Below the pieces are notes generated by a model. That model did no database searches, was not told where the DNA came from, and saw only the letters and a program-made list of their open reading frames with translations. A stretch of DNA of 64,000 nt, from contig NZ_CP025117.1 in the NCBI RefSeq assembly GCF_002831645.1, positions 2,247,001 to 2,311,000 of the forward strand, in the 5' to 3' direction. Source of the stretch: Olleya sp. Bg11-27 (GTDB lineage: Bacteria > Bacteroidota > Bacteroidia > Flavobacteriales > Flavobacteriaceae). Both the position numbers and the translations under genes were made by a program. Of this stretch, positions 5,841-11,560 are shown piece by piece (positions within the stretch are counted from its first letter, which is position 1; every line of letters begins with the position of its first letter).

Positions 5841-5943
5841 ATTGAAGCATTAGTAAGTCGCAAGGTTGGTAATCGCGAGGTTACATCTGAAGGCTATTTG
5901 CGATTGATTATTGAGCAAATACCACTACAAAACTCGGTACTGA

Positions 5944-5969
5944 CCCTTCGTCTACGCTCAGGACAGGCC
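5944..5969 (+). repeat. REP-like insert in intron (second)
   Basis: CTTCGTCTACGCTCAGGACAG is nearly the same as the copy at 5814-5840 and lies in the same orientation. Both occur in peripheral parts of the intron, which suggests these mobile palindromes were tolerated there. Confidence 0.55.
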
Positions 5970-6331
5970 AAGTAGAAATCGTATACAGAGGCATAGTTAT
6001 TCGGGTAAGCAAGCACACCTTTGTAACGCCCAAATAGTACCAAAAGGATAATTATGTAGATACGGCAGTGATTGAGAGAAAGAAGATGCCATTACCTGGG
6101 GCGATCTCCAAAGTTACGAGTTAGCTATATGGAGAAGTCATCAGAGGTCATAGTACTTGCAGGACACGAGTTGAGGCAATACCTCAGAAGGTCTCACAAG
6201 TAAGGAAGGAGGGAGCGTAATTCTCTTCAAAATTCGCATAGGAGCACTAGTGGTAGCCTATGCCTAAATTAGAAGATAGTGTCATGGGTGAAAAGAGCTT
6301 TGGCGTGATGATTTACGAACCGCCGTATACG

Positions 6332-6383: not shown

Positions 6384-6456
6384 CGTATGTACGGTGGTGT
6401 GAGAGGCGCACTCTGGCTATTTTAGTCGGAGCCGTCTACTCGATTGTACACAGGCT

Positions 6457-7877: not shown

Positions 7878-7898
7878 CAGCTTGTGTACAACGTTGTT
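7878..7898 (+). repeat. Cassette-boundary element, copy c, left piece
   Basis: CAGCTTGTGTACAACGTTGTT is the left end of copy c. It is the inverted counterpart of TGTACACAGGCT on the far side of the decarboxylase gene. The copy continues at 9152 after the first IS110 and ends at 10546-10558 after the second. Confidence 0.7.
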
Positions 7899-7939
7899 CT
7901 TTACTTTATACTCATTATAAAAGTAGTTATTACTTTTAC

Positions 7940-8090
7940 TAGGAAACAAGAGGAGAACTAGAACGTTGTTTAGAATAATAGTTCCATTATACGTATAAGC
8001 CCTCTTGTCTTTCTTAGGTTGCTTTAGGACCATTTGGAATACCAGGAATCACTTCCTAATAAAGGTGATAGTCATAGCAACATTTATTAA
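7940..8090 (+). ncRNA. Candidate bridge RNA of IS110 element 1
   Basis: The non-coding left end can fold into a large stem-loop: ACAAGAGG (7946-7953) pairs with CCTCTTGT (8001-8008). Inside the loop, AACGTTGTT (7962-7970) is identical to the left flank at 7890-7898. TATACGTAT (7988-7996) is complementary to ATACGTGTA in the right flank (9156-9164) with one G-U pair. This is the arrangement of left and right target guides in bridge RNAs of IS110 elements. A second hairpin, AGGAA-N4-TTCCT, follows at 8044-8057. The donor guides are not clear. Confidence 0.6.
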
Positions 8091-8125
8091 TCATTCCTCT
8101 TTGAGTAGGAACAATATTTAAAAAT

Positions 8126-9118
8126 ATGAAAAAATATGTAGATGTTATCGGTATTGATGTATCTAAATTAACAATTGATGCACATATTTATAATAGAGGC
8201 GTTCATCGTGTATTTTCCAATACTTCAAAAGGTTACAAAGCACTATTATCTTGGGTCGAAAAGTACCTTGGTAAAGACCTCTGTTTTTTCTGTTTTGAGA
8301 ATACAGGTCATTACTCTACAAATCTTAGTGTTTATTTATCAGAAAACAACATAGATTATGTAGAAGAAAGTCCTTTGACCATTAAACGATCTTCCGGAAT
8401 TATTAGAGGAAAAACAGATCAGCTTGATTCCGCAATGATTGCGAGATATGCATGGCTTTACAAAGAAGAGTTGACTCTAAGTAGTCCAAAAGCGCAAGAT
8501 ATTCAAGAGTTAGGACGTTTGTTATCCTTTAGAGAACAGCTAGTACGAGACCGTACAGGTAAGATGAGTAGTCTTAAAGAAATGCAGACTTTGCTTAGTA
8601 GTCCATCGACTGATGATTGTTGTATAATTGTCAAAAAGATGATTCATTATCTTACAAAACAAATTACAACACTTGAGCAAAGTATTAAAAAACTAATACG
8701 AAGTGATGAGTTATTGGAAAAGAATTATCAGCTTTTAAATACCTTAAAAGGGGTTGGTTTAATATTATCTTGTCAATTGTTATACCACACGAACAATTTT
8801 AAGCGGTTTGATAGTTGGCGTCAGTTTTCAAGTTATTGTGGTGTAGCTCCTTTTGCGCACAGTTCAGGAACCAGTATTTACCGGAAAAACAGAATTCATA
8901 AGATAGGAGACCGGAAAATGAAAACACTCTTAACACTTGCCAGTGTTAGCGCAATACAGTGCGATAAAGAATTAAAACAGTATTACGAGAAAAAAGTTGC
9001 AGAAGGTAAACCAAAACTGGTGGCTTTAAATAATGTTAGAAATAAGATTTTGCCAAGAGCTTTCGCAGTGGTAAAAAGAGGAACACCTTATGTCGAATTA
9101 CAAAAATTTGCAGCATAA
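8126..9118 (+). CDS. IS110-family transposase (DEDD recombinase)
   Basis: The 330-aa protein begins VIGIDVSKLTIDAHI, the DEDD RuvC-like N-terminal motif. It ends with the serine-containing transposase_20 domain: LNTLKGVGLILSCQLL near residue 210 and SYCGVAPFAHSSGTSIYRK near residue 245, where SSGTS supplies the Ser. Length and domain order are normal for IS110. Recombination would be directed by the RNA encoded in the upstream left end. The gene looks intact. It is only distantly similar to the second IS110 transposase at 9543-10514. Confidence 0.92.
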   Translation: MKKYVDVIGIDVSKLTIDAHIYNRGVHRVFSNTSKGYKALLSWVEKYLGKDLCFFCFENTGHYSTNLSVYLSENNIDYVEESPLTIKRSSGIIRGKTDQLDSAMIARYAWLYKEELTLSSPKAQDIQELGRLLSFREQLVRDRTGKMSSLKEMQTLLSSPSTDDCCIIVKKMIHYLTKQITTLEQSIKKLIRSDELLEKNYQLLNTLKGVGLILSCQLLYHTNNFKRFDSWRQFSSYCGVAPFAHSSGTSIYRKNRIHKIGDRKMKTLLTLASVSAIQCDKELKQYYEKKVAEGKPKLVALNNVRNKILPRAFAVVKRGTPYVELQKFAA

Positions 9119-9151
9119 TAAAAAGGTCTTTCAATAATTAGGTTTTGACCT

Positions 9152-9273
9152 TGGAATACGTGTATCGTTCGTTGCGTGTTTCAGTACCTAATTTAGTAAA
9201 CAAAAACGAACGCGAGAAAATTCCGAAGGAATTTTCCAAATAAGCACTTGCCAAAGCAATTAATTATACACGG
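9152..9273 (+). repeat. Cassette-boundary element, copy c, middle piece
   Basis: This piece carries GGAATACGTGTATCGTTCG, a spaced inverted partner AACGAACGCGAG, the hairpin AAAATTCCGAAGGAATTTT and the stretch GCAATTAATTATACACGG. It matches copy a over the shared right half. IS110 insertions border it on both sides. Confidence 0.7.
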
Positions 9274-9309
9274 CTTAAGTTTACAATTCATTAAATTTAT
9301 ACATAAATC

Positions 9310-9465
9310 AGAAAGCACAAAAGAGAGGCATAAGGTTATTATACACGCAGAGACTTTAGATCTCGTCAACATTGAAAATTCCCTCTCTTTTTCTACCCAG
9401 ATTTCGTACAGTTCTGTGAGGCTTTTAGACCTCGATTTTAAGTCGTTGAAACTCGCGTAGTATGT
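9310..9465 (+). ncRNA. Candidate bridge RNA of IS110 element 2
   Basis: AAAAGAGAGG (9319-9328) pairs with CCTCTCTTTT (9382-9391) to close a first loop. In it, ATTATACACG (9338-9347) is identical to the left flank (9263-9272), and GTCAACA (9365-9371) pairs with TGTTGGC of the right flank (10547-10553) with one wobble. A second hairpin follows, GAGG-N6-CCTC type (9418-9433). Around it, ACAGTTCT (9408-9415) resembles the element's right end ACAGTACT (10538-10545), and TTTAAG (9437-9442) pairs with the left end CTTAAG (9274-9279). So all four guide positions expected of a bridge RNA can be assigned. A 70-codon ORF here (9248-9460) is therefore not believed. Confidence 0.7.
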
Positions 9466-9542
9466 CCTTTACTCATTTTATAATATTTAAATAAATTGGA
9501 AATCGTGAATCTTCGTTCCTTGATTTCAAAAAACACTTTGTT

Positions 9543-10514
9543 ATGAATAAAGATATAAAATATTTTGGACTTGACATCAGTCATTTAGTCTTTGATGTTA
9601 CAGATTCCGAAGGGAATTATTACCAGTTTAAAAATAGTATTTCAGGCTTTAAAAAGTATGTAAAGCTGTTAGACATTAATAGTCATTCTGTAATGGAAGC
9701 TACAGGTTATTATCATTATCAGTTGGCTTATTATTTATTTGAAAATGGTCATAAAGTATCAGTAGAAAATCCATTGTCAGTTAAACGTTTTATCCAGATG
9801 AGGCTGTCTAAAATCAAGACAGACAAAAGTGACTCTAAACTAATTTGTGACTATGCGCAACATGTAGAATTAACGTTATGGAAGGGTAGTTCCAAAGAAG
9901 TGCAAGAGTGTCTTCAAATCACCAGACCCCTTACCGTGTATACAAAGCAATGTACAATGTTAAAAAACAAACTACATGGTGAAGCTGTTTTGGGAGAACC
10001 AAGTAAAGCTGTTGTAAGATCATTAAAGCGTAGTTTAAAACACACTGAAAAAGAGCTAGAAAACTTAGAAGCACGTTTATTGCATTTGGTAAAAGAGACG
10101 CATAAAGATTTATTTACGCGTATAAAAACGATACCAGGAATTGGTAGAAAAACAGCTATTATGCTCATCGTTTTAACAGGTGGATTTGAACGTTTTTCTA
10201 GCGCAAGCGAATTATGTAGTTATGCCGGATTAACTCCTGTGATTAGGCAAAGTGGTAGTAGTGTAAAAGGGCGACCACGAATTAGTAAAATGGGCAATCA
10301 AAAACTGAGAAATTTATTGTTTATGTGCAGTTTTAGCGCTTGCAAATACAACAAAGCATGTAAAGCAATTTATGAGCGATTAGTGGCCAAAGGAAAAAGC
10401 AAAAAATTAGCCTTAATAGCGGTTTGTAATAAGCTATTAAAACAGGCATTTGCTATTGCTAAATCAGGGTTAATATTTGATAAAGAATATAAAAGTACGT
10501 TAGAGAAAAATTAA
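9543..10514 (+). CDS. IS110-family transposase (DEDD recombinase)
   Basis: The 323-aa protein starts with IKYFGLDISHLVFDV (DEDD N-terminal motif). It carries MEATGYYHYQLAYYLFENG, SVKRFIQMRLSKIKTDKSDS and the C-terminal domain TIPGIGRKTAIMLIVLTGG and SYAGLTPVIRQSGSSVKG, whose Ser residues belong to the catalytic site. The gene appears complete. It is a different lineage from element 1. The upstream non-coding region is described as its candidate bridge RNA. Confidence 0.92.
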   Translation: MNKDIKYFGLDISHLVFDVTDSEGNYYQFKNSISGFKKYVKLLDINSHSVMEATGYYHYQLAYYLFENGHKVSVENPLSVKRFIQMRLSKIKTDKSDSKLICDYAQHVELTLWKGSSKEVQECLQITRPLTVYTKQCTMLKNKLHGEAVLGEPSKAVVRSLKRSLKHTEKELENLEARLLHLVKETHKDLFTRIKTIPGIGRKTAIMLIVLTGGFERFSSASELCSYAGLTPVIRQSGSSVKGRPRISKMGNQKLRNLLFMCSFSACKYNKACKAIYERLVAKGKSKKLALIAVCNKLLKQAFAIAKSGLIFDKEYKSTLEKN

Positions 10515-10545
10515 TGACATTTTACTTGTTTTTTAACACAGTACT

Positions 10546-10558
10546 TTGTTGGCAGTAG
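10546..10558 (+). repeat. Cassette-boundary element, copy c, right end
   Basis: TTGTTGGCAGTAG is the terminal part of copy c and equals the right end of copy a (4887-4898). It lies next to the 3' end of the antitoxin gene, so the HigBA pair starts where the element ends. Confidence 0.7.
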
Positions 10559-10562
10559 TAAT

Positions 10563-11144
10563 TTACGCTATTGCTAAATCGTCTTTACTTAATTTCAGTT
10601 TTGGATTGTCTAATTTTTTTATAGTTGCTCTAATTTTTACTCTATCAGATTGAGGTAAAAAAGTAGGAACTAAATCAGTTAAATTAATTTTTAAAATTCT
10701 ATTGATGACAATCAAATCTTTTAAGGAAAAAGGACTTACACCATTTATAAGTTCAGAAATATAGGATTTGCTTTGATGTCCCAAAACTTTTCCAAAATCT
10801 TGTTGTGTTAGATTTAAGTTCTTTAATTTTTTTCGGATAAGCTCTTTTCTTCGTTGTATAAACAACCGCTCTTTTTCGGCTATCAATTCCGCAACGTCGC
10901 TTTCACGTAATTTTTTGTCAGAAATATTAGATTCGGCACTCCAATTTTGATTTTCGTACTGCTCAATTAAATCTCTTAATTTTTTTCTAACAGATTTGAA
11001 TTTTGGATTTTCCTTTGAAAGTACACGCAATTTTCTGTCCGCAATCATTGCTCTTTCAAAATCCAATTCATTTAGGATTTTCCCATTTTCAATTAGTTCT
11101 GATATGTCGAATTGTGTTTTCATAATCTTATCTTTTAAATCCAA
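10563..11144 (-). CDS. higA: HigA-like antitoxin, XRE-type HTH
   Basis: The 193-aa protein has an XRE-type helix-turn-helix at about residues 105-160 (LNLTQQDFGKVLGHQSKSY, ISELINGVSPFSLKDLIVIN). The helical N-terminal part may bind the toxin. The gene follows the toxin gene with a 10-bp overlap (toxin first, antitoxin second), the order typical of higBA. A start at the second Met (11123) would remove the overlap. The protein probably neutralises HigB and represses the shared promoter through the palindrome at 11497-11519. Confidence 0.8.
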   Translation of the reverse strand: MDLKDKIMKTQFDISELIENGKILNELDFERAMIADRKLRVLSKENPKFKSVRKKLRDLIEQYENQNWSAESNISDKKLRESDVAELIAEKERLFIQRRKELIRKKLKNLNLTQQDFGKVLGHQSKSYISELINGVSPFSLKDLIVINRILKINLTDLVPTFLPQSDRVKIRATIKKLDNPKLKLSKDDLAIA

Positions 11145-11473
11145 TCATTAGAGTTTAACCATTTTTTAATAGTATTTCTATTTTTTTTAAATGTTGTTTC
11201 ATATTCTTGGTGTGTTCCTACCCAAACAGCAGTAGCTTCATTGTCATCAAACTCAATCAAAATCATTGTTCTGTGAATATTGATGTTGAAAAAGTAAAAT
11301 CCATCGCTATGAACGTTATCTGCATCTTTTCTTGTCTTATTCAGTTCAGTTTGATTCTTCCAATTATTCTCATCAATATCTTTAATCAGTTGGTCGATAG
11401 CTTTGGTCAAAGGAATATTTCCTCTGTTCTTTCTTTTAAGCTTTTCTAATATTTTCTTATTGGTCAGTCTCAT
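11135..11473 (-). CDS. higB: HigB-type mRNA interferase toxin
   Basis: The 112-aa protein belongs to the HigB_toxin group of the RelE superfamily. Landmarks are NVHSDGFYFFNINIHRTMIL and AVWVGTHQEYETTFKKN near the C-terminus, where the basic and aromatic residues expected for ribosome-dependent mRNA cleavage lie. I start it at the ATG at 11473. The TTG at 11485 overlaps a TATATTTG -7 box and so should be upstream of, or at, the transcription start. The toxin-antitoxin pair lies between a GGCAGTAG end (10551-10558) and a related CTGCTAAC end (about 11539-11546). Confidence 0.82.
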   Translation of the reverse strand: MRLTNKKILEKLKRKNRGNIPLTKAIDQLIKDIDENNWKNQTELNKTRKDADNVHSDGFYFFNINIHRTMILIEFDDNEATAVWVGTHQEYETTFKKNRNTIKKWLNSNDWI

Positions 11474-11481
11474 CTGCGATT

Positions 11482-11519
11482 GCAAATATATAAAAAAAGT
11501 TCGAATAATTACCGAACTT
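11482..11519 (-). promoter_or_regulatory. higBA promoter and operator
   Basis: A perfect inverted repeat, AAGTTCG-N9-CGAACTT (11497-11519), lies just upstream of a TATATTTG box (minus strand, 11482-11489), which fits the Bacteroidota -7 consensus TAnnTTTG. The palindrome would cover the upstream promoter element, as expected for autorepression by HigA. The untranslated leader would be very short. Confidence 0.6.
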
Positions 11520-11534: not shown

Positions 11535-11560
11535 ATTGCTGCTAACTAGTTATATGGTGA
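11535..11560 (-). repeat. Possible cassette-boundary element, copy d (degenerate)
   Basis: ATTGCTGCTAACTAGTTATATGG resembles the inverted end TTACTGCCAACGTCTAGGCTATGG of copy b. It marks the right border of the HigBA unit. Only this end is recognisable, so the call is weak. Confidence 0.4.

Follow-up and report, generated by a model that had tools for sequence, protein, structure and literature searches.

Element 2, an insertion sequence of the IS110 group in the genome of Olleya sp. Bg11-27, very probably carries in its left end an RNA that guides its recombinase, with one end of a flavobacterial attC-like cassette site as the target. The evidence consists of a match between guide and flank that covaries among related elements, a conserved form of the RNA, precise insertion, and the cassette layout around relatives of the element in another genome, G113. 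The window referred to below is the whole stretch of DNA analyzed, 64,000 nucleotides of contig NZ_CP025117.1 (positions 2,247,001 to 2,311,000), and coordinates are those of the window unless another genome or locus is named.

Limits, gene and copies of element 2

Element 2 occupies 1,273 bp (9274-10546, plus strand), beginning with CTTAAG and ending with ACAGTACTT (10538-10546), the right end that would serve as left donor; this right end was placed by alignment of the own-genome copies and by comparison with the donor guide. Its gene (9543-10514, plus strand) encodes a 323-residue IS110-family recombinase in which both DEDD_Tnp_IS110 (3.5e-18) and Transposase_20 (5.3e-24) score above the Pfam cut-offs. 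In a PDB sequence search, residues 2-314 align with the IS621 recombinase (E 3.5e-34), and the ISCro4 recombinase (PDB 9t56) is a further relative (E 5.6e-33), the likeness to the latter being at the sequence level only. Within these limits, 269 bp of noncoding sequence lie upstream of the gene and 32 bp downstream, which is the layout of IS110-group rather than IS1111-group elements.

These limits rest on the alignment of own-genome copies and on two kinds of junction. In the relatives L128 and L195 the ends are joined in tandem, reading ACAGTACTT|CTTAAG and ACAGTTCTT|CTTAAG, respectively. A Zobellia copy, L140, has CGTATGTACGG on one side and TGGTGTGAGAGGCGCACTCT on the other, and the same letters run uninterrupted in the window from 6384. 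Likewise, the copy at 170624 in G113 is flanked by GATTATAAACGG and TGTTGGG, and GATTATAAACGGTGTTG is the sequence of empty sites in that array. Tandem junctions and intact targets thus define element 2 as 9274-10546 with no target duplication, in agreement with a remark in the available text of PMC11187229. The two tandem junctions also fit a circular form, which is less than proof of one.

A preliminary description of this DNA, whose interpretation otherwise holds, had placed a CT core at both limits. Precise insertion without duplication shows that to be wrong: CT at 10544-10545 lies within the right end, the last base of the element is T10546, and the intact L140 target shows no duplicated CT. 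Indeed, the intact targets read ACGN|TGTT or ACGG|TGGTG, with no CT at the insertion point and no core shared there by target and donor. In IS621, according to the available text, the core dinucleotide is CT in both target and donor, and other cores also function. The donor core of element 2 may be CT at 9274-9275, which by the fit of the guides would stand opposite TG in the target.

The host genome, a single contig of 4.31 Mb, has at least 21 matches to element 2 with flanks, and 40 of the 115 first-look candidates were scored. Three copies are complete (the one in the window and those at genome positions 969494 and 3772124), and a fourth consists of the left part alone (973710-974714). The left flanks of these four end in ACACGG, ACACGG, ATACGC and ACACGT before CTTAAG; the right flanks of the three complete copies read TGTTG after ACAGTACTT and diverge beyond. 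The genome also holds 12 right-end fragments (loci L042-L049) of 29 to about 420 bp, whose left breaks cluster near positions corresponding to 10250-10266 and 10453-10456 of the window and which retain the right end and mostly TGTTG. At another locus (L050, G000:C1:1886323-1886378), a mini-element of about 50 bp, internally deleted or non-autonomous, has the left end fused to the right end within an attC-like site.

A predicted bridge RNA and its guides

The predicted bridge RNA region (9319-9464, plus strand) was delimited by alignment and consensus folding of 28 sequences, the window and 27 relatives; 36 loci had been tried and the region was obtained from 29, of which we omitted the two with longer regions, L127 and L131. 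The consensus has two stem-loops, and a large internal loop and an apical hairpin are present in both. In the target loop (9322-9388, plus strand), a stem of AGAGAGG (9322-9328) and CCTCTCT (9382-9388) encloses an apical hairpin at 9350-9364; the donor loop (9393-9460, plus strand) is closed by CTAC (9393-9396) and GTAG (9457-9460) and has an inner hairpin at 9418-9433. Both sides have changed in 2 of the 36 consensus pairs, neighbors in the target-loop apical hairpin, and these compensatory changes occur in 12 of the 28 sequences. Most of the other pairs are invariant and so speak neither for nor against themselves. The proposal that this RNA has the bridge RNA form is thus borne out by the consensus and not by the fold of the single sequence (z +0.64; an equal or better fold was obtained for 144 of 200 shuffles). 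Since shuffles fold equally well, we discarded single-sequence folding as proof of structure. A search of Rfam at gathering thresholds gave no match to the element 2 RNA.

The left target guide, ATTATACACG (9338-9347, plus strand), is identical at 10 of 10 positions to the left flank at 9263-9272, just as the preliminary description had reported; together with one variable base, this flank forms the left target (9263-9273). These are the only two exact matches to ATTATACACG in the window; the expected number is 0.20, and two such matches arise in 2 of 100 shuffles. For an offset fixed beforehand, the chance of a 10/10 match is 1.9e-6, or 2.5e-9 with TGTTG included, figures to be read with the knowledge that the offset had been freely chosen. 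The right target guide, GTCAACATTG (9365-9374, plus strand), contains CAACA, which pairs at all five positions with TGTTG (10547-10551) of the right target TGTTGGC (10547-10553, plus strand); the longer pairing proposed earlier, GTCAACA (9365-9371) with the whole of TGTTGGC, holds at six of seven positions.

The matches of the second loop to the two element ends are present and imperfect. The candidate left donor guide, ACAGTTCT (9408-9415, plus strand), agrees at seven of eight positions with the right end, ACAGTACT; the mismatch to this common right end is present in most relatives, and a full match to ACAGTTCT is found in six relatives with the right end ACAGTTCTT. In the putative right donor guide (9434-9445, plus strand), TTAAG (9438-9442) can pair over 5 bp with CTTAA of the left end; CTTAAG itself is palindromic. 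The donor guides are nearly invariant, and covariation therefore cannot test them. Of the four guides that IS110 bridge RNAs possess, both target guides can be placed here, and the two donor guides are plausible but imperfect.

Guides and flanks differ together among relatives

We kept 80 of 153 relatives, and 66 of these, with three own copies, were obtained for guide reading. No guide was read from 9 of the 69 (L122, L127, L131, L143, L145, L161, L172, L176 and L194). Of the remaining 60 rows, 50 entered the left-flank test, after removal of eight without a left flank, of L195 (tandem) and of L167 (doubtful limit); six of these eight rows (L170, L171, L173, L174, L175 and L177) had a misread left guide, and five of the six were read from a separate alignment instead. 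The right-flank test used 54 of the 60, leaving out L128 (tandem), L137 (N bases) and four without a right end.

For the 50 elements whose left flank could be read, the mean agreement of guide and flank is 8.46 of 10 positions, compared with 8.07 when guides are shuffled among elements, and none of 20,000 shuffles reaches the observed value. Among 36 non-redundant guide-flank pairs, the agreement is 8.06 compared with 7.70, reached by 28 of 20,000 shuffles. This shuffling leaves shared ancestry in. The signal comes mainly from one C/T position, the fourth base before the variable one, at which guide and flank are equal in 40 of the 50 elements (25.3 expected). More distant relatives strengthen the pattern. 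In five Flavobacterium copies the guide ends in AACCG and the flanks end in AAACCG before the variable base; in five Leeuwenhoekiella copies the guide is ACTATAGCCG and the flanks are of the type CTATAGCCG, TTATAGCCA and CTACAGCCA. When guides and flanks of six groups were tabulated against each other, the group's own guide was the best or tied in five flank groups (tied in two) and was beaten for G113.

On the right side, pairing is complete (5/5) in 32 of the 54 usable rows, 4/5 in 21 and 3/5 in one, L199. In L140 the right guide has changed to CACCA and meets a flank that reads TGGTG. The left guide of L140 agrees with its flank at one changed position and not at the one after it; as this guide fits only in part, we rejected L140 as a clean double change or as full covariation of the left guide. 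In L127 and L131, whose bridge regions are longer (149 and 169 bases compared with about 138), the right target guide has changed to GTCAATCCCG and the right flank is still the usual TGTT; in these two the guide has perhaps changed after insertion. The earlier expectation that other copies would sit in flanks matched by their guides was supported by the own-genome copies and, as covariation, by the 50 elements, and failed on the right side of L127 and L131.

The target and flavobacterial cassette arrays

Integron attC sites have, in their general shape, the consensus outer boxes RYYYAAC and GTTRRRY. The left flank of element 2 lies within a repeat with 19 matches in the host genome at E up to 1. 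Intact copies of the repeat are about 130-140 bp long, and extend from an AACG-type end to a ACGNTGTT end; their outer boxes resemble RYYYAAC and GTTRRRY, and their inner arms are inverted. By this pattern, 19 attC-like sites were found, scattered, in the own-genome stretches examined. By its form, then, the target of element 2 appears to be an attC-like site of gene cassettes. Comparison of the repeat copies places the remainder of the site in the window at 9156-9273, between a second IS110 element, element 1, and element 2, with its continuation at 10547. Insertion at one end of such sites is also the habit of the IS1111-group elements that target attC, reportedly described by Post and Hall in 2009 and by Tetu and Holmes in 2008; the RNA of those elements is downstream of the gene, and the RNA region of element 2 is upstream.

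The minus strand directly to the right of element 2 encodes HTH_3 and HigB_toxin proteins (10563-11485). Toxin and HTH genes are a usual kind of cassette content. The far end of this cassette was not found in the window, where a degenerate candidate was seen by eye near 11540, and the array-type arrangement, with genes on the same strand and ends matching cassette by cassette, was found in G113 and not for the cassette in the window. G113 has 91 sites over about 78 kb (L223-L227, G113:C1:155001-246000). Consecutive sites delimit 88 segments, whose two ends match at 6.0 of 7 positions, compared with 2.9 for shuffled partners (the largest of 5,000 shuffles giving 3.4), and the longest ORF lies on one strand in 46 of the 47 segments with an ORF of at least 60 residues. 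The three G113 copies of the element 2 relative that were read all lie within such sites. A second genome, G121, has 11 repeat intervals of this kind (L230-L231, G121:C1:308001-336000). The same repeat method gave no cassette sites or array in the G024 region, so that sites are present in two of the three regions fetched (G113 and G121).

In G113, relatives of element 2 are neighbors of a tyrosine recombinase. The protein has 394 residues and is encoded on the minus strand, transcribed toward the array; the last repeat ends at 241606, and the recombinase stop lies about 0.4 kb beyond. In G121, a more distant recombinase is found about 1.5 kb beyond the last site. The G113 recombinase scores above the cut-off of NF040815, "site-specific tyrosine recombinase/integron integrase" (223.2 vs 220), and below that of the integron integrase model TIGR02249 (208.7 vs 265). 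Against TIGR02249, the two array or family recombinases reach 208.7 and 213.4 vs 265, in two stretches each, and the additional domain of IntI was not found in them; the own-genome recombinase pieces lack profile positions 178-238. The own-genome homologue of the array recombinase is split into two overlapping frames (L202, G000:C1:1108000-1109300) and lies about 5-6 kb from an attC-like site. The C-terminal piece has homologues at E 1e-40 in 181 of 299 Flavobacteriaceae genomes, a threshold that also admits more distant recombinases. A profile search of the own genome gave no integron integrase match above the cut-off; matches below it mean little, because the same weak signal appeared in all 14 controls.

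Alternative explanations

The match between guide and flank might be a by-product, a captured piece of flank or a chance likeness, with the RNA having no part in choosing the target. Besides the free choice of offset noted above, the membership of ATTATACACG in a multi-copy genome repeat leans this way: the 10-mer has 18 forward and 9 reverse exact matches in the genome (4 and 5 for a control), four of the forward ones being guide copies. However, the match of the right guide is to the other strand, and guide and flank covary, relatives with other guides having other flanks, which leaves a by-product barely credible. It is also very unlikely that the element, like an integron integrase, recognizes the attC hairpin in its folded form, with the guides merely adding to that recognition. 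The own-genome and G113 copies with readable flanks do sit at attC-like sites, but the Zobellia site of L140 has no visible resemblance to attC, and there the right guide has changed along with the flank and the left guide fits in part.

The target repeats themselves could be ordinary dispersed repeats rather than recombination sites of cassettes, as the scattered sites of the own genome, its want of an integron integrase above the cut-off, and the G024 region, where the repeat method gave no array, might suggest. We think this unlikely in view of G113, where the matching segment ends and the common direction of the ORFs described above are joined by a recombinase at the end of the array, and of G121, where one lies shortly past the last site. 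Guidance by RNA to a cassette site remains the reading we prefer.

Proposed mechanism and relation to known systems

In the mechanism we propose, an RNA made from the left end of element 2 would guide the recombinase. The left guide of its target loop has the sequence of the left flank and the right guide is complementary to the right flank; the donor loop would read the element's own ends. A circular form, in which ACAGTACTT meets CTTAAG, would then enter ACACGN|TGTTG without duplication, at one end of an attC-like site and just inside the outer RYYYAAC-like box. For the RNA-protein complex, the circle, strand exchange, the action of the donor loop and the core dinucleotide, the presumed models are IS621 and ISEc21. 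Judged by homology and the evidence above, the mechanism of element 2 is very probably that of the known bridge RNA elements.

Like IS621, element 2 has a homologous recombinase and, as predicted, an RNA in the left end with two loops, in which the left guide has the top-strand sequence and the right guide is complementary to the top strand (PMC11208160 and PMC11208158, available text). Unlike IS621, it has another target, with no CT at the insertion point of intact targets, its right target guide pairs over five bases, and a donor guide mismatch is common. In the available text of PMC11187229, ISKpn4 and ISPst6, of the IS1111 group, also undergo RNA-guided insertion at one attC end, but their RNA is downstream of the gene and has the opposite guide order, whereas element 2 is of the IS110 group with its RNA upstream. 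ISEc21, of the IS110 type, shares the upstream RNA and the guide order and has a different target, a likeness drawn from its description in the same text.

In another flavobacterium, Riemerella anatipestifer, an attC-like stem-loop next to aph(3')-IVb has been put forward as a mediator of gene acquisition; compared by description, the available text mentions no cassette array or IS110 element there (PMC13148043). In the accessible part of the PMC9024848 survey, one complete integron is named in Bacteroidetes proper, in Salinibacter; other papers, as available, list Bacteroidetes among phyla with integrons without detail, and the terms Bacteroid and Flavobacter are absent from PMC8352920 and PMC10963911. 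What reaches past the known mechanism, and is to us the interesting part, is the specialization of an IS110-group rather than IS1111-group lineage on flavobacterial cassette sites; the kind of system itself is known. This assessment is made against the available portions of PMC11187229, PMC11208160, PMC11208158, PMC9024848, PMC8618304, PMC9668308, PMC2426708 and PMC13148043, subscription journals and preprints lying outside its scope.

As the site of element 2 resembles a recombination site of cassette arrays, such arrays seem to sustain the element and its relatives. We lean toward a broader view, in which Flavobacteriaceae hold large integron-like arrays served by a XerA/IntI-like recombinase without the IntI additional domain, together with a bridge-RNA clade that is specialized on their attC-like sites, tracks site changes by guide mutation and sometimes shifts to a new target, for example near a group II intron. 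For bridge RNA guiding, the related elements amount to a test provided by evolution itself, in that their guides and targets differ together and their insertion points can be read to the base. They also tie gene-cassette sites to a clade of the IS110 group, a link that the literature compared, as far as available, describes for IS1111-group elements. The large flavobacterial cassette arrays indicated here merit a study of their own.

Other IS110 elements and surroundings in the window

Element 1, of family B, has its gene at 8126-9118 and approximate limits at 7894-9155. Two IS110 elements seem to share the attC-like site of the window: element 1 lies toward one of its ends, and element 2 occupies the opposite one. 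In the own genome (L051, L052 and L086-L089), attC-like sites are abutted by three of four copies of element 1, all five of family C and all three of family D; with element 2, four IS110 families of the host genome therefore use these sites. The left ends of families B and C contain candidate guide-like strings to the other end of the site, and family D lies in the opposite orientation.

Further to the left, a group II intron match (RF02001, 74.2 bits) lies at 5869-6090, and about 300 bp past it, at 6384-6406, is the intact L140 target sequence, a stretch that may be part of that intron; an Rfam search of L140 gave no group II intron. To the right, several ORFs between 11626 and 20063 look photolyase- or cryptochrome-like by eye.
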